Shown here one piece after another: positions 5,289 through 23,675 of a stretch of 64,000 nucleotides of DNA. Under the pieces are notes generated by a model. That model did no database searches. It was not told the DNA's origin and saw only the letters and a list, made by a program, of their open reading frames with translations. The stretch is from NCBI GenBank assembly GCA_022360445.1, contig JAKSCV010000022.1, forward strand, positions 1 through 64,000. Reading direction: 5' to 3'. Each line of letters opens with the position of its first letter. Position 1 is the stretch's first letter. Source of the stretch: Gammaproteobacteria bacterium. GTDB taxonomy: Bacteria; Pseudomonadota; Gammaproteobacteria; UBA5861. Made by a program: the position numbers and the translations under genes.

Positions 5289-5595
5289 CACGATCTCCCT
5301 AAGGTTTAGGCGTTGCAGAAAAATTGATAAAAGCAGTATCTCAAAAGAAGACTGCAGATTCACCGATCTTACACCGTACAAATAATTGTTTTTCAGTACC
5401 AGGTGATCATTCGCAGAGTGTATTTTTCATGAAAATAGACCGTCTTGGGAAGCGATCCGCCAGTTGGCGCAGACATGCTGTTTCAGAGACTGTGTCCAGT
5501 TGGGAAGGAATCTCTGATTAAGTCCATAATTTTTATCTAAGCCAAATTATTGTCAGCTAGGTATCGAATTGCAGCGCCATCTAGATGCCGAAAAC
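5289..5595. other. Intergenic stretch between VOC gene and ccmI
   Basis: About 307 bases. A plus-strand 65-codon frame (5324-5521) lies here but has no ribosome binding site and no recognisable motif, so it is not called. No clear terminator hairpin for the ccm operon was found next to its end at 5596. Confidence 0.45.
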
Positions 5596-6816
5596 TTAAG
5601 GCACACGCTGGTTGATGCTAATTGAGACGGTCTCTTCAAGACCGAGCTGGAGCTCAGCCACTTCACCGAAGAGGTCTCCGCTAGCAGCGCTTGGTGTACC
5701 AGTGGTGGAGATGCGCGCAGTGACTTTAAAGGCATCAACCGATGAAAGCTTCAGAGCGGGCGACATGGCTTTTGAATCATCAAGTACCAGAGTGAATGGC
5801 AGCTCCCCTACAGTTTTCTTGACGGCTGCAAGTGGCATTTTGGGACCATGTTGTGCGGTTGCAAATACAAAGACCGTATCCTTGGGATTAACCGTGTCAC
5901 TTAAGTCTTCTGCTAAGGATATGCGCACGGTGATAGAGGCGTTTTCTGTTGCGGGAATAGTGTTGGCAGAGGTAGTTTCTCCCAAACGGTTGTTTGCACT
6001 TGCGATCATTTGACTTAATTCGGAAGCCGCTCTTGGATCTTCTGCCAAATGTACTTTTGCTTTTTGCCAATAGTCCACAGCGTTTTTGAGGTTGCCGGCA
6101 CGTTCTTCTGCGACCCCCATAAGCCACAAAGCTTGAGGTTGTTCGGGCGCGATAGCGAGTGCTTTTTTGAGTAAATTGACAGGCTCTTCTGAAAATTGTC
6201 CGCCTTGCGACATGACGATGGCATCGGCCATGCGGACAAGAACCGTGGGTTCATCACCGACCAATTCATGCAATTTTCTCAGCGCATCAACAGACTTTTT
6301 GTATTGACCCGACACCATATAAGTCCGTGCAAGCACAAACCACCCAGTGGCATCCTTCGGATCTTCAGCCAAGCGGCTTTTTATTTGTGCGATGAGTTCA
6401 TCAATCGTAGGTTGTTCGCTGTTTTGTAAAGCAGCCTGGGTTGATTGCAGTTGAATTGCGCCAGGCGAGCCCAGGGAAAAATACAGTGCGCCAGCGGAGA
6501 GAGGAATAATGAAGAAGATCAATAAGCCAGCCCACCGTCCCTTAGTCGCAGCGGCTTTTTGGGAAGCTTGTGCTTTAAGGTCAACCGCGAGCGACTGTTC
6601 AATTTCTGCCAAGGCGGTTTGATAGCTCGTTTGGCTAATTTCGCCACGATCCAAAGTTATTTTTAATTCAGCATGTTTTTGCCGGGCAATGTCGATATTG
6701 AGTTGTTCCCGATCATCACTGGGTACAGCGCTGTGTTTTTGTCGAATAAAGGGCCATGCGAGTAAGGCGGCGGACAACAAAGCGATAGCGCCTGCAATTA
6801 CATAAAAGGTTGCCAT
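5596..6816 (-). CDS. ccmI: Cytochrome c maturation protein CcmI (CycH), TPR chaperone
   Basis: Apocytochrome c chaperone of the System I heme-ligation complex, which hands the unfolded apocytochrome to CcmF/CcmH on the periplasmic side. The 406 residues begin with a membrane anchor (MATFYVIAGAIALLSAALLAWPFI), continue with a short cytoplasmic coiled stretch carrying LNIDIARQKHAELK, a second membrane span (about 101-120) and periplasmic TPR repeats (about 140-270, for example DATGWFVLARTYMVSGQYKK and PQALWLMGVAEERAGNLKNA). The C-terminal domain (ASITVRISLAEDLSDTVNPK onward) resembles the CcmI C-domain that binds apocytochrome tails. It is the last gene of the operon, 14 bases after ccmH. Confidence 0.93.
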   Translation of the reverse strand: MATFYVIAGAIALLSAALLAWPFIRQKHSAVPSDDREQLNIDIARQKHAELKITLDRGEISQTSYQTALAEIEQSLAVDLKAQASQKAAATKGRWAGLLIFFIIPLSAGALYFSLGSPGAIQLQSTQAALQNSEQPTIDELIAQIKSRLAEDPKDATGWFVLARTYMVSGQYKKSVDALRKLHELVGDEPTVLVRMADAIVMSQGGQFSEEPVNLLKKALAIAPEQPQALWLMGVAEERAGNLKNAVDYWQKAKVHLAEDPRAASELSQMIASANNRLGETTSANTIPATENASITVRISLAEDLSDTVNPKDTVFVFATAQHGPKMPLAAVKKTVGELPFTLVLDDSKAMSPALKLSSVDAFKVTARISTTGTPSAASGDLFGEVAELQLGLEETVSISINQRVP

Positions 6817-10907: not shown

Positions 10908-11774
10908 ATGGATACGGTCATCAGTATTAGTAACTTAAATAAGCATTTCAAAGGCAAGCCTGCCTTAAATGATATTTCCCTGAGTATCTCGCGTGGTGAA
11001 ACCGTCGCGCTGATCGGGGCGTCTGGGTCCGGTAAATCAACGCTTCTCAGACATATTGCCGGTTTACTGACAACGGATAAATCTGGCCAGAAAGCAAGTG
11101 GATGCGACTTGCCTGCCTGCTGTGTCTCCGTTTTGGGACAAACCATCCAGGAAGATGGCCAGCTGGCTAAAAAAGTTCGCCAGCATCGCGCAAGGGTGGG
11201 TTTTATCTTCCAGCAATTTAATCTGGTTAACCGTATGTCCGTTTTAAATAACGTCGTGCTGGGGGCGTTGGCTCGGGTTCCGGGTTGGCGAGGTGCGCTG
11301 AACTGGTTTCCTAAAAGCGAACAACTTGTGGCCATGCGTGCACTTCAACGTGTTGGAATGGATAGCTTTGCCAGTCAACGGGCTTCAACGCTCTCCGGAG
11401 GCCAACAGCAGCGCGTAGCAATTGCCCGGGCACTGGTTCAAGGTGCCGAGGTGTTATTAGCGGACGAGCCGGTTGCCTCATTGGATCCGGAATCCTCACG
11501 ACGAGTACTGGATACGTTGACCAAAGTGAGTAAACAAGACCAAAAAACTGTTGTCATCTCACTACACCAAGTTGAGTACGCCCGGCAGTATTGCACCCGG
11601 GTGATCGCATTAAAAAAAGGACGTGTTGTTTTTGATGGCCCCACAGCCGATTTAACACTGGAACTATTGAATGAACTCTACGGATCGGAGTCCCTCAACG
11701 TTCATGGCCTCACTCCCGATGCCTCTGAACCTAACACCATTAAAAGCTCAAATGAGATGGCAAAGGCCGTCTGA
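10908..11774 (+). CDS. phnC: Phosphonate ABC transporter ATP-binding protein
   Basis: ATPase of the PhnCDE phosphonate importer. Of 288 residues, the Walker A is GASGSGKST (about 38-46), the signature [15 protein letters not shown], Walker [14 protein letters not shown] and the switch histidine ISLHQVEYA. The PhnC-specific region [20 protein letters not shown] and [20 protein letters not shown] separates it from general ABC ATPases. A short extra stretch ([18 protein letters not shown]) in the middle makes it slightly longer than E. coli PhnC (262). A GAGGA ribosome site precedes the ATG. First gene of a ten-gene operon behind the Pho box. Confidence 0.96.
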
Positions 11775-11816
11775 GCGAATGATGACAACCCCACCACTTA
11801 TCTGAGGAGATCTTTT

Positions 11817-12812
11817 ATGTTACGTAGAACATTTATAGGTTCATTGCTGCTCGCGGCGGCCAGTGTTGTGATAGCACCGGCGGCTAAGGCCGAAATGAAC
11901 GAATTAAAGTTTGGCATTATTTCAACCGAATCGGCACAAAATTTGAAAAAAATCTGGGTGCCGTTTTTAGAGGATATGGCCAAGAAAACAGGTATGTCTG
12001 TTAAGCCTTTTTTCGCGCCTGACTATGCTGGGGTTATCGAAGCCATGCGTTTTGATAAGGTTGACCTTGCCTGGTATGGCAATAAATCAGCCATGGTTGC
12101 GGTTGATCGATCGGGGGCCGAAATTTTTGCGCAAACGGTGGATGTTTCAGGTAACCCGGGTTACTGGAGCTTACTGGTCACACATAAAGACAGCCCGCTT
12201 AACTCGGTGGAAGATGTTTTGAAAAATGCTAGGGATTTGACTTTCGGCAACGGTGACCCGAACTCAACCTCTGGCTTCTTGGTACCGGGATACTATGTTT
12301 TTGCCGCCAATAATATCGACCCCAAACGGGCCTTCAAACGCGTGTTGAATGCTAATCACGAAGCGAACTTGATGGCTGTTTCGGCCAAACAGGTTGACTT
12401 TGCAACCAACAACACGGAAAGCTTGGGCCGTTTACAAACAACAGCACCCGATCATGCTGAAAACATTAAAATTATCTGGAAGTCGCCACTGATTCCTTCT
12501 GACCCGATTGCATGGCGCAAAAACCTGCCTGAAGAAACCAAAGCCAAAATCAAACAGTTTTTTATGAGCTATGGCAAATCAGGTGACAATGTTGAAAAAG
12601 AAAAACAAATCTTGGCTGACTTGCAGTGGGCACCGTTCAGGGATTCAAACAACGACCAGTTACTGCCCATTCGCCAGCTATCGCTGTTCAAAGATCGCCG
12701 TAAAGTCGCTACCGATGAAAAGTTGAGCGAATCAGAAAAAGCAGAAAAGCTTAAAGTCATTGATGCTCAACTGGCTGAGCTCGATAAGCGCATGGCCGCA
12801 CTTTCCAAATAA
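11817..12812 (+). CDS. phnD: Phosphonate ABC transporter periplasmic binding protein
   Basis: Periplasmic binding protein for phosphonates (and often phosphite or phosphate esters). A Sec signal peptide with cleavage after AAKA at about residue 25 is followed by the PhnD-family start NELKFGIISTESAQNLKKIW; the ligand region includes VDLAWYGNKSAMVAVDRSGA and FGNGDPNSTSGFLVPGYY (phosphonate-binding STSG motif). 331 residues, normal length. AGGAGAT lies before the ATG. A 9-bp hairpin follows the gene, as is common after an abundant binding protein. Confidence 0.96.
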   Translation: MLRRTFIGSLLLAAASVVIAPAAKAEMNELKFGIISTESAQNLKKIWVPFLEDMAKKTGMSVKPFFAPDYAGVIEAMRFDKVDLAWYGNKSAMVAVDRSGAEIFAQTVDVSGNPGYWSLLVTHKDSPLNSVEDVLKNARDLTFGNGDPNSTSGFLVPGYYVFAANNIDPKRAFKRVLNANHEANLMAVSAKQVDFATNNTESLGRLQTTAPDHAENIKIIWKSPLIPSDPIAWRKNLPEETKAKIKQFFMSYGKSGDNVEKEKQILADLQWAPFRDSNNDQLLPIRQLSLFKDRRKVATDEKLSESEKAEKLKVIDAQLAELDKRMAALSK

Positions 12813-12849
12813 GTGTTGCTAAAGTACTCATAGTTTCATTCTTGACTGT

Positions 12850-12874
12850 TCGGCGAGAGGTTTCTTCTCGCCGA
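12850..12874 (+). promoter_or_regulatory. Intercistronic hairpin between phnD and phnE
   Basis: Perfect 9-bp stem (12850-12858 TCGGCGAGA with 12866-12874) and a 7-base loop, with no T-run after it. More likely a 3'-end stabiliser or partial attenuator that lets phnD be made in excess over phnE than a full terminator, since all downstream genes lack their own visible promoter. Confidence 0.6.
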
Positions 12875-12908
12875 GCCCCGCCATAAGCTCCTCATCAGGT
12901 ACACGCTC

Positions 12909-13715
12909 ATGCAAAACACTGCTGAAAGTCACCCTGCCGTCGCGTTACCCAAACGCGACACAAAACGAAGTTTGATGCATGCCTTTGGTTGGGGACTTTT
13001 CCTCGCGCTACTCGGGCTGTCTTGGGAGGGGGCGGAAATGAACCCCGGCGTATTGGTTTCAGATTCATCCAATATGCTCAAGTTTGCCAGCGATTTCTTT
13101 CCACTGGACTTCCATGAGTGGGATTTTTATCTCACAGAAATGGTGATTACATTACAGATTGCCGTCTGGGGTACGGTGCTCTCAATTGTCGCCGCGATTC
13201 CTTTTGGCATTCTGTCATCCGAGAACATCGTTCCCTGGTGGGTTTATCAACCAGTCAGACGTTTAATGGATGCCGCCCGCGCGATCAACGAAATGGTTTT
13301 TGCCATGTTATTTGTCGTCGTCGTTGGTTTGGGACCGTTTGCCGGTGTGCTGGCCCTATTTGTTCATACAACTGGTATTTTGGCGAAGCTTTTTTCCGAA
13401 GCTGTGGAGGCAATTGAGCCCGGTCCCGTAGAAGGCATTCGTTCAACGGGTGCCAGCGCTATCCACGAGGTGATCTTCGGGGTTATTCCCCAAGTGCTGC
13501 CGCATTGGATATCGTTTTCACTCTACCGTTTTGAATCGAATGTGCGCTCGGCAACCGTCATTGGGTTGGTGGGCGCCGGTGGAATTGGTGTTGTGCTCTG
13601 GGAAAGCATTCGTGGGTTCAACTTTCCACAGGCGGGGGCCATTATGGTCATCATCATCATTTCCGTGACATTAATTGACCTGTTGTCACAATGGCTTAGA
13701 AAACGGGTTATATGA
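12909..13715 (+). CDS. phnE: Phosphonate ABC transporter permease
   Basis: Inner-membrane permease (268 residues) of the PhnCDE importer, six or so hydrophobic segments. The binding-protein-dependent permease EAA loop is visible near [21 protein letters not shown] with [10 protein letters not shown] following, the segment that docks on PhnC. The N-terminal 20 residues are hydrophilic. It ends by ATGA overlap with phnG, so transport and C-P lyase genes are translationally linked. Only one phnE is present. Confidence 0.95.
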
Positions 13716-14200
13716 TGGCAAGCCAGAATTCAGAGACAGAAACACCGGTGACAAATTCAAAGATCCAAAAACGCCAACATTGGTTATCCGTTTTGGCCAA
13801 ATCACCGCTGGAGCCGATCGAAAAAGTATGGGCCGAATACAGTGGTTTTGTTCATTACGAACTCATACGCCCGCCTGAAATTGGATTAGCCATGGTGCGA
13901 GCACGTACCGGTGGGACGGGTTCTTCCTTTAATCTCGGTGAAATCACCGTGACTCGAGCAGCAGCCAATGTTCAGGACACAACAGGCTTTGGTTTCATTC
14001 GAGGGCGCAACAAGCGCCAGGCAGAATTGATGGCCGTGTTTGATGCCTTACTTCAGCGTGAAGGTACAGCAGAGGAGCTGATGAGAAAACTGATTCACCC
14101 ACTTGACCGTGCGCTTAAAACAGCGGCGGATGAGCGGTCTGCAAAAGCGGCGGCGACAAAAGTGGAATTTTTCACCATGGTGCGCGGGGAGGCTGACTGA
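13712..14200 (+). CDS. phnG: C-P lyase core subunit PhnG
   Basis: Subunit of the PhnGHIJ core complex, which with PhnI catalyses transfer of the phosphonate to the ribose of ATP. 162 residues; the family pattern is seen in [20 protein letters not shown] and [20 protein letters not shown]. The start ATG overlaps the phnE stop; its TGA overlaps the phnH ATG (TGATG). The N-terminal 15 residues are polar and may be extra relative to other PhnG. Confidence 0.95.
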
Positions 14201-14811
14201 TGAGCCAGGAATCCCGTACTTTTACCCAGGGTTTTAGTCTGCCAGCGATGGACATGCAGTATGTTTTCAGGGAGATTTTGAAGGCACTCTCATCGCCAGG
14301 AACAGAGGTTGCGTTGCGCAAACCGGGTGATGTGCCGTTACTGAATGCAGCCAGCATGGCCGCACTACTAACATTAACAGACAGCACAACCCCTCTGTGG
14401 CTTGATGAACTCACACAGAACAACGATGACTTGCACAACTACCTTGCGTTTCATTGCGGGGTGCCTGTGGTGAACGAGCAGAGACGCGCCGAATTTGCGG
14501 TCATCACGGCGCAAGAAAAGCGTCCCGCATTGGATACCTTTTCTCTGGGTACTGATGAATACCCGGATCAAAGCACCACGGTGATTGTCCAGGTCGACGC
14601 GTTCACAGGTGAGCGGTTCCGGTGTACCGGCCCGGGTGTTAAAACAGAAAGAAATTTCATGGTGTCAGGTCTTGATGCGGACTTCTGGGAAGAAAGAAAA
14701 GCCTTGATGCCCTTGTTCCCAAGGGGGGTCGACATCCTTTTGACCTGTGGTCACTGCCTGATTGCGTTGCCACGCACAAGCTGTGTCGAGGAGATTTCGC
14801 GATGTATGTAG
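14200..14811 (+). CDS. phnH: C-P lyase core subunit PhnH
   Basis: Structural subunit of the PhnGHIJ complex, with a PLP-transferase-like fold but no cofactor lysine. 203 residues; typical segments are FREILKALSSPGTEV, TLTDSTTPLWLD and GVDILLTCGHCLIALPRTS at the end, where E. coli PhnH has GVDLILTHGER-type sequence. Starts one base inside the phnG stop and overlaps phnI by ten bases. Confidence 0.94.
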   Translation: MSQESRTFTQGFSLPAMDMQYVFREILKALSSPGTEVALRKPGDVPLLNAASMAALLTLTDSTTPLWLDELTQNNDDLHNYLAFHCGVPVVNEQRRAEFAVITAQEKRPALDTFSLGTDEYPDQSTTVIVQVDAFTGERFRCTGPGVKTERNFMVSGLDADFWEERKALMPLFPRGVDILLTCGHCLIALPRTSCVEEISRCM

Positions 14812-15899
14812 CCGTCAAAGGGGGTGAAAAGGCAATTGAAAATGCGCATAAGTTACTGGCAGAAGAGCGCCGGGGTGATGTGTCCATTGCCGAACTGGAC
14901 GTTAAACAGATTCAACATCAGCTGAAACTGGCCGTTTCTCGTGTGATGACCGAAGGCTCCTGTTACGACGAAGAACTGGCCGCGTTGGCCATCAAACAAG
15001 CTAGTGGTGACCTGGTTGAAGCCATTTTTCTGCTGCGTGCGTATCGAACAACCTTAACGCGCTTTTTTACAACCGAGCCCATTAAGACCGAAACCATGCA
15101 GCTCTGTCGGCGCATTTCCGCCACGTATAAAGATTTGCCTGGTGGGCAGGTTCTTGGGCCGACTTATGACTACACCCTCAGACTGCTCGACTTCAAACTG
15201 GCCGCAGAAGGTGGTGAGACAGCAGAGGTAGATGTGGCAAATAATCATAACCTGGAATCCATGCCTCGCGTTGTAGATGTGCTGAACCATGAGGGCTTAA
15301 TCGAACCGGCAGAGCCGTCTGCCGTGCCCGAAGAAGCGACTGACTTAACGCGTGAACCACTCAAACTACCGGCAAACAGACCCACCCGACTACAAAATCT
15401 GGCACGTGCAGACGAGGGGTTTTTGCTGGCACTGGGGTACTCAACACAACGAGGCTATGCAAATTCACATCCATTCGCGGGTGAAATACGGATCGGTTGG
15501 GTGAGTGTCAGCGTTGTACCGCAAGAGCTGGGTTTTGAGATTGAAATCGGTGAGATAGAAGTCACCGAGTGTGAAATGATCAATCAATTTCAAGGCAGCA
15601 AGGTGGTCCCACCGCAATTTACCCGAGGCTATGGCCTGACCTTCGGACACAGCGAGCGCAAAGCCATGGCCATGGCCCTTGTGGATCGAGCTCTCCGCTG
15701 CGATGAGTTGGGAGAAGAACGCATCGCCCCTGCGCAAGATGAAGAGTTTGTACTGGCACACAGCGATAATGTAGAAGCCTCCGGTTTTGTACAGCACCTT
15801 AAATTACCGCATTACGTTGATTTTCAGTCTGAGCTGGAAATGATCCGTAAGCTTCGGGACAAGAGGAATCTAAGCGGTGAGGAAAACAGTGATGGCTGA
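14802..15899 (+). CDS. phnI: C-P lyase core subunit PhnI (nucleosidase)
   Basis: Catalytic subunit that, with PhnG, H and L, replaces adenine of ATP by methylphosphonate to form ribose 1-phosphonate 5-triphosphate. 365 residues, normal length. Conserved stretches include MYVAVKGGEKAIENAHKLLA at the N-terminus, GSCYDEELAALAIKQASGD, and the C-terminal GYGLTFGHSERKAMAMALVD with its histidine. A GAGGAG ribosome site lies inside the end of phnH. The C-terminal coding region overlaps the phnJ start by eight bases. Confidence 0.96.
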   Translation: MYVAVKGGEKAIENAHKLLAEERRGDVSIAELDVKQIQHQLKLAVSRVMTEGSCYDEELAALAIKQASGDLVEAIFLLRAYRTTLTRFFTTEPIKTETMQLCRRISATYKDLPGGQVLGPTYDYTLRLLDFKLAAEGGETAEVDVANNHNLESMPRVVDVLNHEGLIEPAEPSAVPEEATDLTREPLKLPANRPTRLQNLARADEGFLLALGYSTQRGYANSHPFAGEIRIGWVSVSVVPQELGFEIEIGEIEVTECEMINQFQGSKVVPPQFTRGYGLTFGHSERKAMAMALVDRALRCDELGEERIAPAQDEEFVLAHSDNVEASGFVQHLKLPHYVDFQSELEMIRKLRDKRNLSGEENSDG

Positions 15900-16797
15900 A
15901 CAGAACCCCCAGAGTGAACTGGAAACGGAATACAATTTTGCTTACCTGGATGAGCAAACCAAGCGGATGATCCGGCGAGCTATTCTCAAAGCTGTGGCCA
16001 TCCCGGGGTACCAGGTGCCATTTGGCAGCCGAGAAATGCCCATGCCCTACGGCTGGGGAACCGGAGGCATACAGGTGACAGCCAGCATTATCGGGCCCAA
16101 AGACGTGCTGAAAGTGATTGATCAAGGCTCGGACGACACCACCAATGCCGTCAGCATCCGCCAATTTTTCCAGCGCACAACCGGGGGTGAAACCACGGAA
16201 AGCACAGCCGCTGCCACACTGATCCAAACGCGCCATCGTATCCCGGAAAAGCCTTTAACTGAGCAACAAATTCTGGTTTACCAAGTGCCCATCCCTGAAC
16301 CTCTTAGGTTTTTAGAACCCCGTGAGACAGAAACCCGCAAAATGCACGCATTGGCTGAATACGGAATCATGCATGTCAAATTGTATGAAGACATCGCCCA
16401 CTACGGCCAAATTGTTCACAGCTACGACTATCCAGTGGTCGTGAATGATCGATATGTCATGCGGCCATCGCCCATTCCCAAATTTGATAACCCTAAAATG
16501 CACCAAATGCCTGCGCTACAGCTTTTTGGCGCGGGGCGGGAAAAACGCATCTACGCGATTCCACCGTATACGGATGTAAAAAGCCTAGACTTTGATGACC
16601 ACCCTTTTGAGGTGCAGCGATGGGAAGAAGCCTGTGCGCTTTGTGGTGCGACAGACAGCTTTCTGGATGAAATTGTTATGGACGATGAGGGACAGCGTAT
16701 GTTCACGTGTTCAGATACCGATTATTGCCGTGAGCGGCAACAGTCAGCGGGCAACTGTCGCTTAGCGGGCGATGAACAAACACAGGCAGGAGGCTGA
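15892..16797 (+). CDS. phnJ: C-P lyase catalytic subunit PhnJ (radical SAM enzyme)
   Basis: Radical-SAM enzyme that breaks the carbon-phosphorus bond of ribose 1-phosphonate 5-phosphate, giving the hydrocarbon and a cyclic 1,2-phosphate. The four key cysteines are at residues 248, 251, 273 and 279 (CALCG, FTCSDTDYC), a constant shift of seven from E. coli Cys241, 244, 266 and 272. PGYQVPFGSREMPMPYGWGT is the conserved N-terminal block. The ATG at 15892 is preferred over GTG at 15877 because GAGG sits ten bases upstream. 301 residues, about 20 longer than E. coli at the C-terminus. Confidence 0.97.
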   Translation: MAEQNPQSELETEYNFAYLDEQTKRMIRRAILKAVAIPGYQVPFGSREMPMPYGWGTGGIQVTASIIGPKDVLKVIDQGSDDTTNAVSIRQFFQRTTGGETTESTAAATLIQTRHRIPEKPLTEQQILVYQVPIPEPLRFLEPRETETRKMHALAEYGIMHVKLYEDIAHYGQIVHSYDYPVVVNDRYVMRPSPIPKFDNPKMHQMPALQLFGAGREKRIYAIPPYTDVKSLDFDDHPFEVQRWEEACALCGATDSFLDEIVMDDEGQRMFTCSDTDYCRERQQSAGNCRLAGDEQTQAGG

Positions 16798-16805
16798 GCC
16801 GCTCA

Positions 16806-17597
16806 ATGAACTCACAATCACACCATGAACAACCGTTATTAAGTACAAAAAATGTCACGGTTTATTATGGAAACCACATCGGTTGTCGCAATGTCTCGTT
16901 TGATTTATGGCCGGGGGAAGTCATTGGTATCGTCGGAGAATCCGGATCTGGCAAAACAACCTTGTTAAACAGTATTTCGGCGCGGTTAGAACCTGATGAA
17001 GGCGTCATCGACTATCAACTTCACACCGGTGACCGGGTCAATCTTTATGAGCTTTCCGAAGCGCGTCGACGATTCTTGATCCGGACCGAGTGGGGGATTG
17101 TGCACCAAAACCCGCGCGATGGACTGCGCATGGGCGTGAGTGCAGGCGCCAATATCAGCGAACGTTTGATGGCTTTAGGGGGCCGCCACTACGGCACATT
17201 ACGTGACAGTTCTGAACAGTGGATGACCTCAGTTGAACTGGATACGACTCGTATCGACGACATGCCCCGAGAATTTTCCGGCGGTATGCTGCAGCGTTTG
17301 CAAATTGCCCGTAACCTGGTCACCCAACCTCGCTTGGTTTTTATGGACGAGCCAACAGGCGGGTTGGATGTTTCTGTTCAGGCGCGCTTGCTCGACTTGA
17401 TCCGGCAACTGGTTTCAAAGCTGGATTTAGCCGCAGTTATTGTGACGCACGATCTAGCGGTCGCTCGGCTTTTATCACAGCGTTTGCTGGTCATGCATCG
17501 GGGTGAGGTGGTTGAAAGTGGCCTCACGGATCAGGTTCTGGATGACCCTCAGCATCCGTACACGCAGTTGCTAGTGTCCTCTGTTTTACAGGTGTAA
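16806..17597 (+). CDS. phnK: C-P lyase ATP-binding subunit PhnK
   Basis: ABC-type ATPase that docks on the PhnGHIJ core rather than on a membrane permease; together with PhnL it is needed for C-P bond cleavage in vivo. 263 residues with Walker A GESGSGKTT, signature FSGGMLQRLQIARNL, Walker B LVFMDEPTGGLDV and VTHDLAVARL. The PhnK hallmark YYGNHIGCRNVSFDLWPGEV is present. It begins nine bases after the phnJ stop. Confidence 0.95.
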   Translation: MNSQSHHEQPLLSTKNVTVYYGNHIGCRNVSFDLWPGEVIGIVGESGSGKTTLLNSISARLEPDEGVIDYQLHTGDRVNLYELSEARRRFLIRTEWGIVHQNPRDGLRMGVSAGANISERLMALGGRHYGTLRDSSEQWMTSVELDTTRIDDMPREFSGGMLQRLQIARNLVTQPRLVFMDEPTGGLDVSVQARLLDLIRQLVSKLDLAAVIVTHDLAVARLLSQRLLVMHRGEVVESGLTDQVLDDPQHPYTQLLVSSVLQV

Positions 17598-17599
17598 AT

Positions 17600-18310
17600 A
17601 TGGTGATGGATTCCGTATACCTGAGTGTTGAAAAACTGGATAAAACGTTTCTGTTGCACAACCAGAACAAAACTCGCATCAATGCTTTTAAAGACATTGA
17701 CCTCAAAGCCTATCGCGGAGAGTGTCTGGTGATTCGCGGCGAATCCGGCTCCGGCAAAAGCACGCTTTTGAAAACCCTTTATGGAAACTACTTGGCTAAG
17801 GATGGCCACATTTTTATTCAACATCGTGGTGCTCGTGTAGACCTGGTTCGATCAGAACCCCGAAAAATTATGCAAATTCGTAAGGAGACGATAGGTTATG
17901 TCAGTCAATTCTTGCGGGTTGTGCCGCGGGTCCCCTGCATAAACATCGTTGCGGAACCCCTGCTTGAGCGCGGAGTTGATCAGGCGATCGCCCTGGAAAA
18001 AGCGCAGACCTTGCTGGAGCGACTGCATATTCCATCCCATCTTTGGAACCTTTCACCCGTTACTTTTTCCGGCGGTGAGCAGCAGCGGGTTAATCTGGCA
18101 CATGGTTTTATTGCCGATTACCCCATCTTGTTGCTGGACGAGCCGACCGCATCGCTGGATGCCATGAATCGCGATGTTGTGACTGAACTGATTCATGAAA
18201 AGAAAGCACAAGGCGTTGCACTGATCGGCATTTTTCATGATGCTCATGTGCGTGAATCCGTCGCAGACAGGTATGTTGACATGCATTCGATAGGAACGCT
18301 AACTCCATGA
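17600..18310 (+). CDS. phnL: C-P lyase ATP-binding subunit PhnL
   Basis: Second soluble ABC-type ATPase of the C-P lyase system, 236 residues. Walker [10 protein letters not shown], signature FSGGEQQRVNLAHGF, Walker B ILLLDEPTASLDA and IFHDAHVRE. The PhnL-specific NLAHGF signature variant and KTFLLHNQNKTRI opening separate it from PhnK. Two bases after the phnK stop; its TGA overlaps the phnM ATG (ATGA). Confidence 0.95.
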   Translation: MVMDSVYLSVEKLDKTFLLHNQNKTRINAFKDIDLKAYRGECLVIRGESGSGKSTLLKTLYGNYLAKDGHIFIQHRGARVDLVRSEPRKIMQIRKETIGYVSQFLRVVPRVPCINIVAEPLLERGVDQAIALEKAQTLLERLHIPSHLWNLSPVTFSGGEQQRVNLAHGFIADYPILLLDEPTASLDAMNRDVVTELIHEKKAQGVALIGIFHDAHVRESVADRYVDMHSIGTLTP

Positions 18311-19449
18311 AAAATTTGATATTAACTAATGCGAAAATCGTGACAGAGGATGAAGTCATTAAGGGCACGCTGCATATTCAGGGCGGTCAGATTCGTGCGG
18401 TTGACACGGGTAATAGCACACTGGCTGCCGCGCAGGATTTACAGGGCGACTACCTGTTGCCCGGGCTGATCGAGCTGCATACCGATAACTTGGAAAAACA
18501 CTATAGCCCAAGGCCGGGTGTAATCTGGCCTTCTTTACCGGCGGTGATTTCTCACGACGCGCAAATTTCAGCCGCGGGGATTACGACAGTTTTTGATGCA
18601 CTCACGCTGGGAGATGACAATCAAAAAGCGCGCCGGTCCGAAAATATTAGCGCCATGACCGGAGCTGTGATCGATGCGCAAAACAAAAACCTGCTGCGGG
18701 CAGAGCACCTACTGCATATGCGCTGTGAGGTGAGCTGTGAAGAGGTGATTCACTTGTGGGAAGCTTTTGCAGATGAGCACCTGGTCAGGCTTGTTTCTGT
18801 TATGGATCATGCGCCAGGACAACGCCAGTTTGTCAGCTTAGATAAGTATCGCCTGTATTATCAAAAAAAATACAATCTGAATGACGCGCAAATGCAGATT
18901 TTCATTGAAGAGCAAACCGAAGCGGCAAAAAAACACAGCGATCGCAATCGCAAGCATATTGTCGAGAGCTGTAAAGCACGAAATTTACCCATAGCCAGTC
19001 ATGATGATGCCACCGAAGAACATGTTGAGGAATCGGCGGGTTATGGGATGGTTGTTGCCGAATTCCCAACGACAGAAGTCGCAGCAAAAGCTTCGAAAGC
19101 ACATGGTATGGGGGTTATGGCCGGTGCACCCAATATGGTCAGAGGGCAATCACATTCGGGTAACATTTCTGCACGTGAATTAGCGTCACTTGGGCTTGTG
19201 GATATTCTGTCATCAGACTATGTGCCCGTTAGCTTGCTGCACAGTGCCTTCCTGTTACACGAGTTGAACCCGAACATCAGTCTGCCAGGGGCGATTGCCA
19301 CCGTTTCGTCGACGCCCGCTGAAATCGTCGGTTTGCATGATCGTGGGAAACTGACTGAAGGGCGGCGAGGGGATGTGATCCACGTACACCCGTCGAATGA
19401 TTTGCCAGTTGTCCGGGGAGTTTGGCGTGAAGGCATTAAGGTGCAGTGA
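18307..19449 (+). CDS. phnM: Ribose 1-phosphonate 5-triphosphate diphosphatase PhnM
   Basis: Amidohydrolase-fold metal enzyme that removes pyrophosphate from ribose 1-phosphonate 5-triphosphate before PhnJ acts. 380 residues; metal-binding LIELHTDNLEKHYSPRPGV (H-x-D/N variant of HxH), later SHDDATEEHVEES and the C-terminal SSDYVPVSLLHSAFLL with the conserved aspartate. Begins by ATGA overlap with phnL and ends overlapping a GTG start of the next gene (GTGA). Confidence 0.96.
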   Translation: MKNLILTNAKIVTEDEVIKGTLHIQGGQIRAVDTGNSTLAAAQDLQGDYLLPGLIELHTDNLEKHYSPRPGVIWPSLPAVISHDAQISAAGITTVFDALTLGDDNQKARRSENISAMTGAVIDAQNKNLLRAEHLLHMRCEVSCEEVIHLWEAFADEHLVRLVSVMDHAPGQRQFVSLDKYRLYYQKKYNLNDAQMQIFIEEQTEAAKKHSDRNRKHIVESCKARNLPIASHDDATEEHVEESAGYGMVVAEFPTTEVAAKASKAHGMGVMAGAPNMVRGQSHSGNISARELASLGLVDILSSDYVPVSLLHSAFLLHELNPNISLPGAIATVSSTPAEIVGLHDRGKLTEGRRGDVIHVHPSNDLPVVRGVWREGIKVQ

Positions 19450-20204
19450 CGGTGACGTTACCCGCCGATGTGGAAGAGATCAGTCGAGCTCGGTTTGCTT
19501 TGTATTTCTGCCCAAATCCGGGAACAGCTTTGTGGCATTTTGGCAGCACATGGCTGGGGAGAAATATTCAGGAACACACAGATCAAGCTGAGCCGCGGTT
19601 TGAGGCACTTAATGAGATTTTGAACACAGGCGAATGTGAAGGGTTTGCGCTGGATGCGATAGTAAAACTTCCAAGGTACTATGGGTTTCACGCCACACTC
19701 AAGCCGCCTTTTTACCTAAAAAAAAGCAAAACGCTGGATGAACTGATGGCCGCTGTGCAGAATTTTGCCAGTGAAAGTCGTACATGCGTACTGCCGCCCC
19801 TGATCGCCCGCAGTCTGGGGCACTTTGTGGCTCTCGTGCCCGAGACAACAAGCCCCAGGGTTGATGCCTTCGCACGGAATTGCGTGGTGTATTTTGATGA
19901 TTTTCGTGCCTTACCCAGCGAAGCAGAAGTGGAGCGGCGATTAAAAACACAATGGACTCCAAGGCAGCAGGCGCTGCTGGCCCAGTGGGGCTACCCGTTT
20001 GTGATGGAAGAATTTCGATTCCATATGACATTAACAGGCAAACTCCCAGCTGACGTGCAGGCCCACCTGATACATCAACTATCAGAGCCTGTTACGGAGC
20101 TTAATCAAGTCCCTCACGTTATTGACACCCTTTGTTTGTGTTATCAGCCCCAGGAAGGGGCTGATTTCAAAGTATTCGCACGGTTTCAGTTGAACGGCTC
20201 TTAG
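19446..20204 (+). CDS. Phosphonate-operon DUF1045 protein, 2H phosphoesterase fold
   Basis: 252-residue protein of the DUF1045 family, known from phosphonate operons. Two H-x-T motifs, HAT at about residues 82-84 (GFHATLKPPF) and HMT at about 193-195 (FRFHMTLTGKL), are the hallmark of 2H phosphoesterases, which open cyclic phosphates or act on 2',3'/1,2-cyclic esters. It closes an operon that has no phnP (phosphoribosyl cyclic phosphodiesterase) and no phnN, so opening the 1,2-cyclic phosphate made by PhnJ is a fitting but unproven role. The start is GTG at 19446 (GTGA overlap with phnM) or GTG at 19452. Confidence 0.88.
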   Translation: MTVTLPADVEEISRARFALYFCPNPGTALWHFGSTWLGRNIQEHTDQAEPRFEALNEILNTGECEGFALDAIVKLPRYYGFHATLKPPFYLKKSKTLDELMAAVQNFASESRTCVLPPLIARSLGHFVALVPETTSPRVDAFARNCVVYFDDFRALPSEAEVERRLKTQWTPRQQALLAQWGYPFVMEEFRFHMTLTGKLPADVQAHLIHQLSEPVTELNQVPHVIDTLCLCYQPQEGADFKVFARFQLNGS

Positions 20205-20223: not shown

Positions 20224-21891
20224 CTAGTCTTCTTCCCGGAGTGCTCGACGCAGAATTTTTCCGACATTAGTTTTGGGGAGTTCATCCCGGAACTCAAACT
20301 TTTTAGGAATTTTATAGGCTGTGAGCGACTGATGCAGGAATGATTTTATTTCGTCTTCCGTAAGGGATTTCCCGGCTTCAAAGACGATAAAAGCTTTAAC
20401 GACTTCACCTGAATTGTCATCATCAACACCGATACAGGCCGCCTCAAGAATGTCTGGGTGTTGGGTTAAGGCGTCTTCCACTTCGTTGGGGTAAACGTTA
20501 AATCCGGAGACGATGACGATGTCTTTTTTCCGGTCAACGAGGTACATAAAGCCAACGTCGTCTATGTAGCCCATATCACCGGTTTTTAACCAGCCATCCT
20601 GAGTGAGTGTGGCTTCGGTTTCGTCTGGCCTTTGCCAATAGCCCCGCATCACTTGCGGCCCTTTGACCCATAGTTCACCGATGTCGCCAGCAGGTACTTC
20701 GGCTTCTGTCTCATCCCGAAAACTCACATCTGTATTTGGCGCAGGAATACCGATGCTGCCCGTATAATCAGTAATATCAATCGGATTCACGGAAACCAAA
20801 GGAGATGACTCCGTCAACCCATAGCCTTCAATAATGAAACAACCCGTTGCCTGCTTCCATTGCCGGGCCACATCTTTTTGCACCGCCATGCCGCCACCAA
20901 TGCTGAGCTTTACCCCGGAAAAGTCGAGTTTATTAAAACCGGGCTCATGAAGTAAGGCATTGAAAAGGGTATTTACCCCGGTAATAAAACTGAATCGCCA
21001 CTGCCCCAGCTCTTTAACAAAAGCGGGAAAATCCCGGGGATTCGTAATGAGCACATTCGTGGCACCCCGAGAGAAAAAAGACAAGCAGTTCGCCGTTAAA
21101 CAAAAAATGTGGTAGAGCGGAAGCGCTGTGATTGCGACTTCATCTTGCTCCTGTTTTAACGGTTCTAAATAAGCTAACACCTGTTCCGTATTCGCCACCA
21201 TGTTTTGGTGGGTCAAAATTGCGCCCTTGGCGACACCCGTTGTACCTCCGGTGTATTGCAAAAAGGCGACATCATCGGGCTGCACATCAACCGGTTGAAA
21301 GTCATTCGCCGGGCTGTTTTTTAAGGCCTGGCGAAAACTCACGGCTTCGGGTAAACGGTACTTGGGTACCATCTTCTTGACATACCGTACAACCCCATTC
21401 ACCAAAATGGACCGGAAAGAACCCAACATGTCACCAATTTCCGTCACTATAATGTGTCGAATGTTGGTTTGGTCCACCACTTCTTCCAAAACAGAGGCAA
21501 AATTCGCCACCACAACGATTGCGACCGCACCTGAATCATTGAGCTGGTGCTTTAGCTCGGGCGCGGTGTATAAAGGATTCACGTTCACAACCGTCAATCC
21601 TGAACGCAAGGCGGCAAAAAGAGCCACGGGATACTGCAAAAGATTGGGCGACATGATGGCAATACGGTCACCCTTTTTGAGTTTTAACTCATTTTGGAAA
21701 TAGCTGGCCAATTGACGCGTCAAAACCTCCAGCTCGGAATAACTGATGTTTTTTCCCATACAGGAAAAAGCAGGTTTTGATGAAAATGCTTCACAAACGG
21801 ACTCAAACATAGAAGCCAGTGAAGCATGCTTGCTTGGGTCAATTGTGGAAGGCATGCCTTCCGGGTAGCGAGTTAACCAGGGCTTATTCAT
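20224..21891 (-). CDS. fadD: Long-chain fatty acid-CoA ligase
   Basis: Adenylate-forming enzyme that activates fatty acids to acyl-CoA on the inner face of the membrane for beta-oxidation. 555 residues; the N-terminus (NKPWLTRYPEGMPSTIDPSK) and NLLQYPVALFAALRSGLTVV follow E. coli FadD closely. The AMP-binding motif is YTGGTTGVAKGA, followed by GYGLTESSPLVSVNP, WLKTGDMGYIDDVGF and the A10 region TNVGKILRRALRE with the catalytic lysine. A TATAAT on the minus strand (21969-21964) could be its -10, without a good -35. It faces the end of the phn operon, 19 bases apart. Confidence 0.95.
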   Translation of the reverse strand: MNKPWLTRYPEGMPSTIDPSKHASLASMFESVCEAFSSKPAFSCMGKNISYSELEVLTRQLASYFQNELKLKKGDRIAIMSPNLLQYPVALFAALRSGLTVVNVNPLYTAPELKHQLNDSGAVAIVVVANFASVLEEVVDQTNIRHIIVTEIGDMLGSFRSILVNGVVRYVKKMVPKYRLPEAVSFRQALKNSPANDFQPVDVQPDDVAFLQYTGGTTGVAKGAILTHQNMVANTEQVLAYLEPLKQEQDEVAITALPLYHIFCLTANCLSFFSRGATNVLITNPRDFPAFVKELGQWRFSFITGVNTLFNALLHEPGFNKLDFSGVKLSIGGGMAVQKDVARQWKQATGCFIIEGYGLTESSPLVSVNPIDITDYTGSIGIPAPNTDVSFRDETEAEVPAGDIGELWVKGPQVMRGYWQRPDETEATLTQDGWLKTGDMGYIDDVGFMYLVDRKKDIVIVSGFNVYPNEVEDALTQHPDILEAACIGVDDDNSGEVVKAFIVFEAGKSLTEDEIKSFLHQSLTAYKIPKKFEFRDELPKTNVGKILRRALREED

Positions 21892-22884: not shown

Positions 22885-23601
22885 TTAGTTGAATCTAGCC
22901 TGTTTATACGCTTTCGATCTCCTATCACCACCACGACTAGCAGGACTAACAGGTCGATTTAACTGGTTCGCAATTTTCTGCTTAAAATGATTGCTACCCA
23001 ATACCCACGCTTTGTTTGTTGCTGTGCGAATATCGCTGAGTGTTTTCTCACTAATGTGCGCTTGAAACAATGATCGATATGCCGCTTGTCTTTCTTCACC
23101 CGTTTTGCCTAAACCAGTGTATTCCGAATGCGGCGCTACAAGTGCGTTAACCTGGCCTAACGCATTGTAACGGTCACTCGACCAGGGATATTCTGATGGG
23201 TGCTCAACCATGCCTTCTGCTCTGACAGGGTTCAGTTCGATATAGCGATAACAGGTTAGCAAATAGTTTTCTGTGTCAATGAGGGTCGCTTTGTAACGCC
23301 CTTCCCAAAGGGTGCCTGTACGGTTATAGGAACGATTGAAGTATTGGACATAATACCGCCCCAGCATTTGCATAGCTTTGCTAATGCCTTGCTCTGTTTG
23401 TGGCGTGAGCAGAAAATGCACATGATTTGTCATTAAGACATAGGCATGAACATCACATTGGTGCTTGTCGCAGGCCTGCTTTAGCTTTTCCAGATAAAAC
23501 CGATAGTCTTCATCGGCGTAGAAAATCGGATCACGATTATTACCCCGAACGATGATATGTTGTGGTTGACCGGGAATAACAAAGCGGGCTTGACGCGGCA
23601 T
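22885..23601 (-). CDS. REP-associated tyrosine transposase (Y1_Tnp / RAYT)
   Basis: Single-strand transposase related to IS200/IS605 TnpA. From ATG 23601 the protein has 238 residues (MPRQARFVIPGQPQHIIVRG), the usual RAYT opening. The HUH metal motif is seen as NHVHFLL with histidines 60 and 62, and a candidate catalytic tyrosine lies in LGRYYVQYFNR (about 83-87). GTLWEGRYKATLI and YIELNPVRAEGMVEHPSEYPWSS are family hallmarks. The C-terminal GGDRRSKAYKQ segment is the basic tail of this subgroup. RAYTs act on REP-like palindromes flanking them and are usually domesticated, moving non-autonomous repeats. No strong ribosome site before the ATG; the frame opens further to 23649. Confidence 0.92.
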   Translation of the reverse strand: MPRQARFVIPGQPQHIIVRGNNRDPIFYADEDYRFYLEKLKQACDKHQCDVHAYVLMTNHVHFLLTPQTEQGISKAMQMLGRYYVQYFNRSYNRTGTLWEGRYKATLIDTENYLLTCYRYIELNPVRAEGMVEHPSEYPWSSDRYNALGQVNALVAPHSEYTGLGKTGEERQAAYRSLFQAHISEKTLSDIRTATNKAWVLGSNHFKQKIANQLNRPVSPASRGGDRRSKAYKQARFN

Positions 23602-23648
23602 GGATCGATATTCGATAAAAACCAAAAATAACTTAACCAAGCACGTCA

Positions 23649-23675
23649 ATCAACCGAGTCTGACCCTATTGATTT
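23649..23675 (-). repeat. RAYT-associated repeat, right copy (inverted)
   Basis: Minus-strand copy of the 27-base element (core GGGTCAGACTCGG). It is followed outward by ATTGATTTTGCTATTG-type AT-rich sequence that recurs in the small element near 26610. Confidence 0.8.

Follow-up and report, generated by a model that had tools for sequence, protein, structure and literature searches.

How is the carbon–phosphorus (C-P) lyase pathway completed in a bacterium whose phn operon contains neither phnN nor phnP? The question is raised by a stretch of 64,000 nucleotides from a gammaproteobacterium (contig JAKSCV010000022.1; the whole stretch is referred to here as the window), in which an 11-gene operon, phnCDEGHIJKLM-DUF1045 (positions 10908–20204, all genes in one direction), ends in a gene of the DUF1045 family. 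C-P lyase is a main bacterial route to the phosphorus of phosphonates and yields marine methane as a side product. PhnI, PhnM and PhnJ make 5-phosphoribosyl 1,2-cyclic phosphate (PRcP), which in Escherichia coli is opened by PhnP, PhnN being the kinase that turns ribose 1,5-bisphosphate into phosphoribosyl pyrophosphate (PRPP) (PMC10574752, PMC3463581). In E. coli phnP mutants the cyclic phosphate accumulates and the phosphonate is not turned into a usable phosphorus compound (PMC3463581). We conclude that the DUF1045 gene very probably encodes a phosphoribosyl cyclic phosphodiesterase of the C-P lyase pathway which replaces PhnP, hydrolysis of PRcP being its putative reaction.

The DUF1045 gene and the search for PhnP and PhnN

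The gene and the two catalytic motifs of its product (residues numbered from GTG 19446) are located as follows.

19452..20204, forward strand: DUF1045/TIGR03223 2H phosphoesterase gene, 250 aa from its probable start at GTG 19452, identified by family models, with the start placed by comparison with the same-genus genome G398
19689..19697, forward strand: catalytic motif 1, H82-A-T84, both H82 and T84 being present in all 52 sequences compared
20022..20030, forward strand: catalytic motif 2, H193-M-T195, with H193 invariant and T195 nearly invariant (>90%) in 52 sequences

An earlier note, made from the letters of the window alone, had described a 2H phosphoesterase with two H-x-T motifs, encoded at 19446–20204, that closes a phn operon lacking phnN and phnP. 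Gene order, the two motifs and a match to Pfam DUF1045 (PF06299; 181.8 bits, gathering score 24.3) all agree with that description, and neither phnN nor phnP lies between phnM and the downstream neighbour of the DUF1045 gene, a convergent fadD-like gene at 20224–21891. The forward-strand open reading frame also stands (252 aa if read from GTG 19446), but its start needs revision: GTG 19452, two bases past the phnM stop codon, is the likelier start, because the ATG of the G398 gene aligns with it and G398 has no start codon at the equivalent of 19446. Translational coupling to phnM, as the note had proposed, remains likely.

The product matches NCBIfam TIGR03223 ('putative phosphonate metabolism protein') with 236 bits over model positions 1–227 of 228, narrowly missing the cut-off of 249, below which the best TIGR03223 matches of 21 of 59 other genomes also fall; there is no match to TIGR03307, the PhnP model. 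Besides the catalytic motifs, R16, Y20, Y79, P88, R154, R165, G182, Y183, P184 and F241 are invariant in the 52 sequences, and the conserved arginines could hold the 5-phosphate of the substrate. G398 has the same operon with the same DUF1045 ending; its DUF1045 protein is 81% identical to that of the window, and the ratio of non-synonymous to synonymous substitution rates (dN/dS) between the two genomes is 0.25 for DUF1045, 0.09 for phnM and 0.06 for fadD. A dN/dS of 0.25 indicates that the gene is under constraint, albeit weaker than that on phnM or fadD. A chance reading frame was ruled out by this value together with relatives spanning at least 80% of the DUF1045 length in 143 plasmid records.

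Single-sequence and profile searches found no solved DUF1045 structure. The AlphaFold model of the protein (mean predicted local distance difference test score 91.8, predicted template modelling score 0.89) has a two-lobed 2H fold, and its top Foldseek match is the Arabidopsis cyclic phosphodiesterase (CPDase) 1jh6 (E 7.8e-7); the title of the entry 1fsi reads 'cyclic nucleotide phosphodiesterase of Appr>p'. Over residues ~9–251 the VIA Z scores are nearly tied, at 15.6 for YjcG, 14.0 for LigT and 13.8 for the plant CPDase, and the predicted fold therefore indicates a 2H enzyme but not which substrate it takes.

The window's genome (3.46 Mb in 110 contigs, 97.88% complete) was searched with profiles for both enzymes, and neither PhnP nor PhnN was found in the operon or elsewhere. 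Its sole match to the PhnP model is a generic metallo-beta-lactamase-fold protein of 21 bits (cut-off 272), rejected as PhnP since the RNase Z and GloB models score better. The sole match to the PhnN model (TIGR02322) was likewise rejected, being a guanylate kinase (247 bits to TIGR03263). The absence of both genes is strong, yet not absolute at this completeness and contig number. The note's proposal depended on there being no phnP elsewhere in the genome and suggested a search for phnN as well; the absence of phnP leaves it standing.

PhnP and DUF1045 among C-P lyase genomes

Among 398 genomes drawn from the phylum, 83 contain PhnJ, including the window's own, and 80 others of these were searched with models for DUF1045, PhnP and PhnN. 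DUF1045 was found in 59 and PhnP over the cut-off in 19, with both in none and neither in two; addition of the window's genome brings DUF1045 to 60 of 81 C-P lyase genomes. The Fisher p for exclusion (1.8e-16) overstates the evidence and was set aside, because on a PhnJ tree of 92 rows the PhnP and DUF1045 states need only 2–3 changes. One family code (f5) contains both states, PhnP and DUF1045, in different members (G366 and G246).

In every genome with PhnP, its gene is found within 12 kb of phnJ, as is DUF1045 in 44 of its 59 genomes; where it is apart from phnJ, DUF1045 can travel with phnM and phnN. A further 80 named DUF1045 loci were examined with fetched flanks of up to 10 kb, phnP being called by phmmer at a threshold of 100 against a PhnP reference set. 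Other phn genes are present at 75 of these loci, phnM at 70, phnN at 59 and phnP at none. The anti-correlation anticipated by the earlier note is thus seen in both sets, with no co-occurrence in the 81 genomes (PhnP counted over the cut-off) or at the 80 named loci, and its suggestion that a 2H enzyme is a non-homologous replacement for PhnP is supported by this survey, by the genome-wide absence of PhnP and by the 2H-matching predicted fold.

A single operon with both DUF1045 and a PhnP homologue was found. It belongs to L044, a locus of a gammaproteobacterial metagenome-assembled genome whose DUF1045 relative scores highest in the named collection, and has the order phnM-DUF1045-phnN followed by the PhnP homologue (5522–6256, forward strand) of 117 bits to TIGR03307, against the cut-off of 272. 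This homologue scored 97.8 against the reference set, just below the threshold, and hence was not counted above. Compared with four true PhnPs, its HYHxDH motif has become GWGTGR and most other conserved His and Asp residues are replaced, the metallo-beta-lactamase domain is no longer detected by Pfam, and a C-terminal TH-SH motif is kept. This looks like a PhnP that has lost catalysis beside DUF1045, either a pseudoenzyme or a decaying gene; it is a lead from one metagenome-assembled genome, possibly new, for which a prior report was not found.

That DUF1045 very probably replaces PhnP is well supported but already known as a hypothesis, and the exclusion pattern is also published. The replacement by a 2H enzyme was proposed in 2013 (PMC3840354) and, according to the summary in PMC10574752, by the PhnP structure paper of 2009; that 2023 article also summarizes a 2009 survey of 54 operons, 27 of them with PhnP, in which rcsF, as DUF1045 is called in the phn literature, occurred in 16 operons without phnP. 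The proposal was restated in 2021 (PMC8235418), and the same DUF1045 assignment is used in PMC5649143 and PMC6981132. Many proteobacteria with C-P lyase (59 of 80 sampled) have DUF1045 and no PhnP; once its reaction is named, the pathway would be complete in most of these bacteria and there would be one 'domain of unknown function' fewer.

Proposed mechanism and rival explanations

From family, motifs, fold and neighbourhood we infer a substrate, a product and a mechanism. The 2H enzyme would bind PRcP between its two lobes, and its two H-x-T pairs would hydrolyse the cyclic diester without a metal to yield ribose 1,5-bisphosphate, from which PhnN would then make PRPP in most bacteria. Since PhnN is missing in the window's lineage, ribose 1,5-bisphosphate must there go through some other enzyme. 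In published work, a phnP-less, 2H-containing marine fosmid allows an E. coli delta-phnHIJKLMNOP strain to grow on methylphosphonate (PMC3840354), which is indirect genetic support because the fosmid carries other genes. A DUF1045 protein also appears beside PhnI, PhnJ, PhnL and PhnM in the phosphorus-stress proteome table of a marine Phaeobacter (PMC10132767).

Several observations weigh against this interpretation. The absence of PhnN from the window's genome leaves the canonical next step unexplained, and the literature examined yielded no assay of a DUF1045 protein. The exclusion pattern is clean but has few evolutionary events behind it, and is thus a small evolutionary sample. Four alphaproteobacteria-like DUF1045 genomes also have a weakly PhnP-like protein (77–86 bits), encoded on a contig other than that of the phn operon, and the metal motif is intact in the three that were aligned (L126, L127 and L128 from G280, G247 and G357; 81–86 bits). 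Neither PhnP nor DUF1045 is found in G374 and G377 (L006 and L007; family code f9), though C-P lyase genes and phnN are present, and 14 of 15 sampled PhnJ-containing Actinomycetota are without DUF1045 and without PhnP over the cut-off, two of these having a weak PhnP-like match. Other solutions therefore exist, and those Actinomycetota probably have a third way of opening PRcP. In G374 the first 29 positions are missing from the phnN match, as might be expected of an operon in decay.

The Actinomycetota added little as an independent test of exclusion, since DUF1045 occurs in one of the 15 (Curtobacterium) and PhnP over the cut-off in none, and since the Curtobacterium phn cluster was apparently transferred. 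The PhnJ of two loci from this cluster with DUF1045 (L117 and L121) nests among alphaproteobacteria, which suggests that the whole cluster moved between phyla.

An explanation that takes the PhnN gap as its starting point is that the 2H enzyme opens the other ester bond of PRcP, giving ribose 2,5-bisphosphate, or goes further to ribose 5-phosphate and inorganic phosphate, such that PhnN is unnecessary in this lineage. PhnN was found in 78 of the 80 searched genomes, being missing in G016 and G032, so that with the window's genome it is absent from three of 81; all three carry DUF1045, and the G398 operon is also without phnN. Yet 57 of the 59 DUF1045 genomes (and all 19 PhnP genomes) also have PhnN, with phnN less than 150 bp from DUF1045 in 23, and because this ribose 1,5-bisphosphate kinase is so frequent and so often adjoining, the DUF1045 product is probably the same as that of PhnP. 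The conserved residue set is, moreover, unchanged in the PhnN-less DUF1045 members, and we regard the alternative regiochemistry as improbable.

Two further explanations concern the role of DUF1045 itself. It might act on a related cyclic phosphate, such as a damaged or dephosphorylated intermediate or RNA or nucleotide 2',3'-cyclic phosphates, as a housekeeping 2H activity; 2H enzymes do take many cyclic phosphates, and YjcG and LigT score structurally as high as the plant CPDase. Linkage to phn genes at 75 of 80 loci and perfect exclusion of PhnP would be unexpected for a housekeeping RNA enzyme, and we give this explanation little credence. It is very improbable that another enzyme of the genome, such as a distant metallo-beta-lactamase or a PHP-family protein, opens PRcP and that DUF1045 is accessory or regulatory. 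A generic metallo-beta-lactamase-fold protein is indeed encoded in the window's genome, some alphaproteobacteria have weakly PhnP-like proteins whose motifs are intact, and many actinobacterial C-P lyase genomes have neither gene; but the window's candidate falls far below the PhnP cut-off and is better fitted by other models, DUF1045 proteins keep the two catalytic motifs throughout the family, which does not suit an accessory role, and PhnP appears to have decayed in one DUF1045 operon.

The replacement of PhnP, which we prefer, leaves the fate of its product in PhnN-less genomes to be considered. Absence of PhnN is the rarer feature of the window's genome and possibly a new one. Downstream of DUF1045 in the PhnN-less L004, L005 and L125, inspection by eye, with no profile scan made, revealed no obvious kinase that might substitute for PhnN. 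Trichodesmium has no PhnN, PhnO or PhnP and nevertheless grows on phosphonates (PMC10574752), and PhnN is therefore dispensable elsewhere too. It is interesting to speculate that in the window's lineage, and in two or more others, the product of the 2H enzyme bypasses PRPP, through another regiochemistry, a mutase or a phosphatase, with DUF1045 marking a second ending of the pathway, although we think this rather unlikely. In a separate observation, a PhnN-like domain lies at the C-terminal end of a 756-aa open frame (L017, 8870–11137, reverse strand; G297), and similar long frames with PhnN matches occur in G382, G392, G167, G249 and G308; these are possibly PhnN fusion proteins.

The phn operon and comparison with known systems

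The ten genes upstream of DUF1045 are as follows.

10908..11774, forward strand: phnC, phosphonate ABC ATPase, assigned by position and similarity (ABC_tran 116.5 bits)
11817..12812, forward strand: phnD, phosphonate-binding protein (TIGR03431, 335 bits)
12909..13715, forward strand: phnE, phosphonate ABC permease (TIGR01097, 296 bits)
13712..14200, forward strand: phnG (TIGR03293, 171 bits)
14200..14811, forward strand: phnH (TIGR03292, 169 bits)
14802..15899, forward strand: phnI (PF05861, 548 bits)
15877..16797, forward strand: phnJ, radical-SAM C-P lyase, whose true start may be further in (PF06007, 509 bits)
16806..17597, forward strand: phnK (TIGR02323, 381 bits)
17600..18310, forward strand: phnL (TIGR02324, 328 bits)
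18307..19449, forward strand: phnM, ribose 1-phosphonate 5-triphosphate diphosphohydrolase (NF011984, 534 bits; TIGR02318, 485 bits)

At other phn loci, the phnC that adjoins phnD and phnE matches the phnC of the window. No Pho box was found upstream of phnC, the five matches in the window at up to three mismatches equalling chance expectation, and promoter and terminator scans were likewise at chance level. An IS200-like Y1 transposase gene (Y1_Tnp, 62.9 bits) lies at 22885–23649 on the reverse strand, ~2.7 kb past the operon.

The closest known counterpart is the TIGR03223/PF06299 family itself, with which the window's gene shares family membership, position next to phnM and the absence of phnP, and from which it differs in that its genome is also without phnN, which most DUF1045 genomes keep. 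E. coli PhnP (TIGR03307) performs the pathway step and the reaction that are proposed for DUF1045, but has a metallo-beta-lactamase fold and an unrelated sequence, is metal-dependent and is excluded from DUF1045 genomes. E. coli LigT and Bacillus subtilis YjcG share the 2H fold; they are smaller (~170 aa), lack the DUF1045 insertions and have no known linkage to phosphonate genes. The Arabidopsis CPDase, the best Foldseek match, also shares the superfamily fold and has a ribose 1,2-cyclic phosphate as its substrate, although it is smaller, is ~15% identical, and acts on a by-product of tRNA splicing rather than on the C-P lyase product. The plant enzyme leaves the phosphate on C1, and the same reaction on PRcP would give ribose 1,5-bisphosphate, the product of PhnP.
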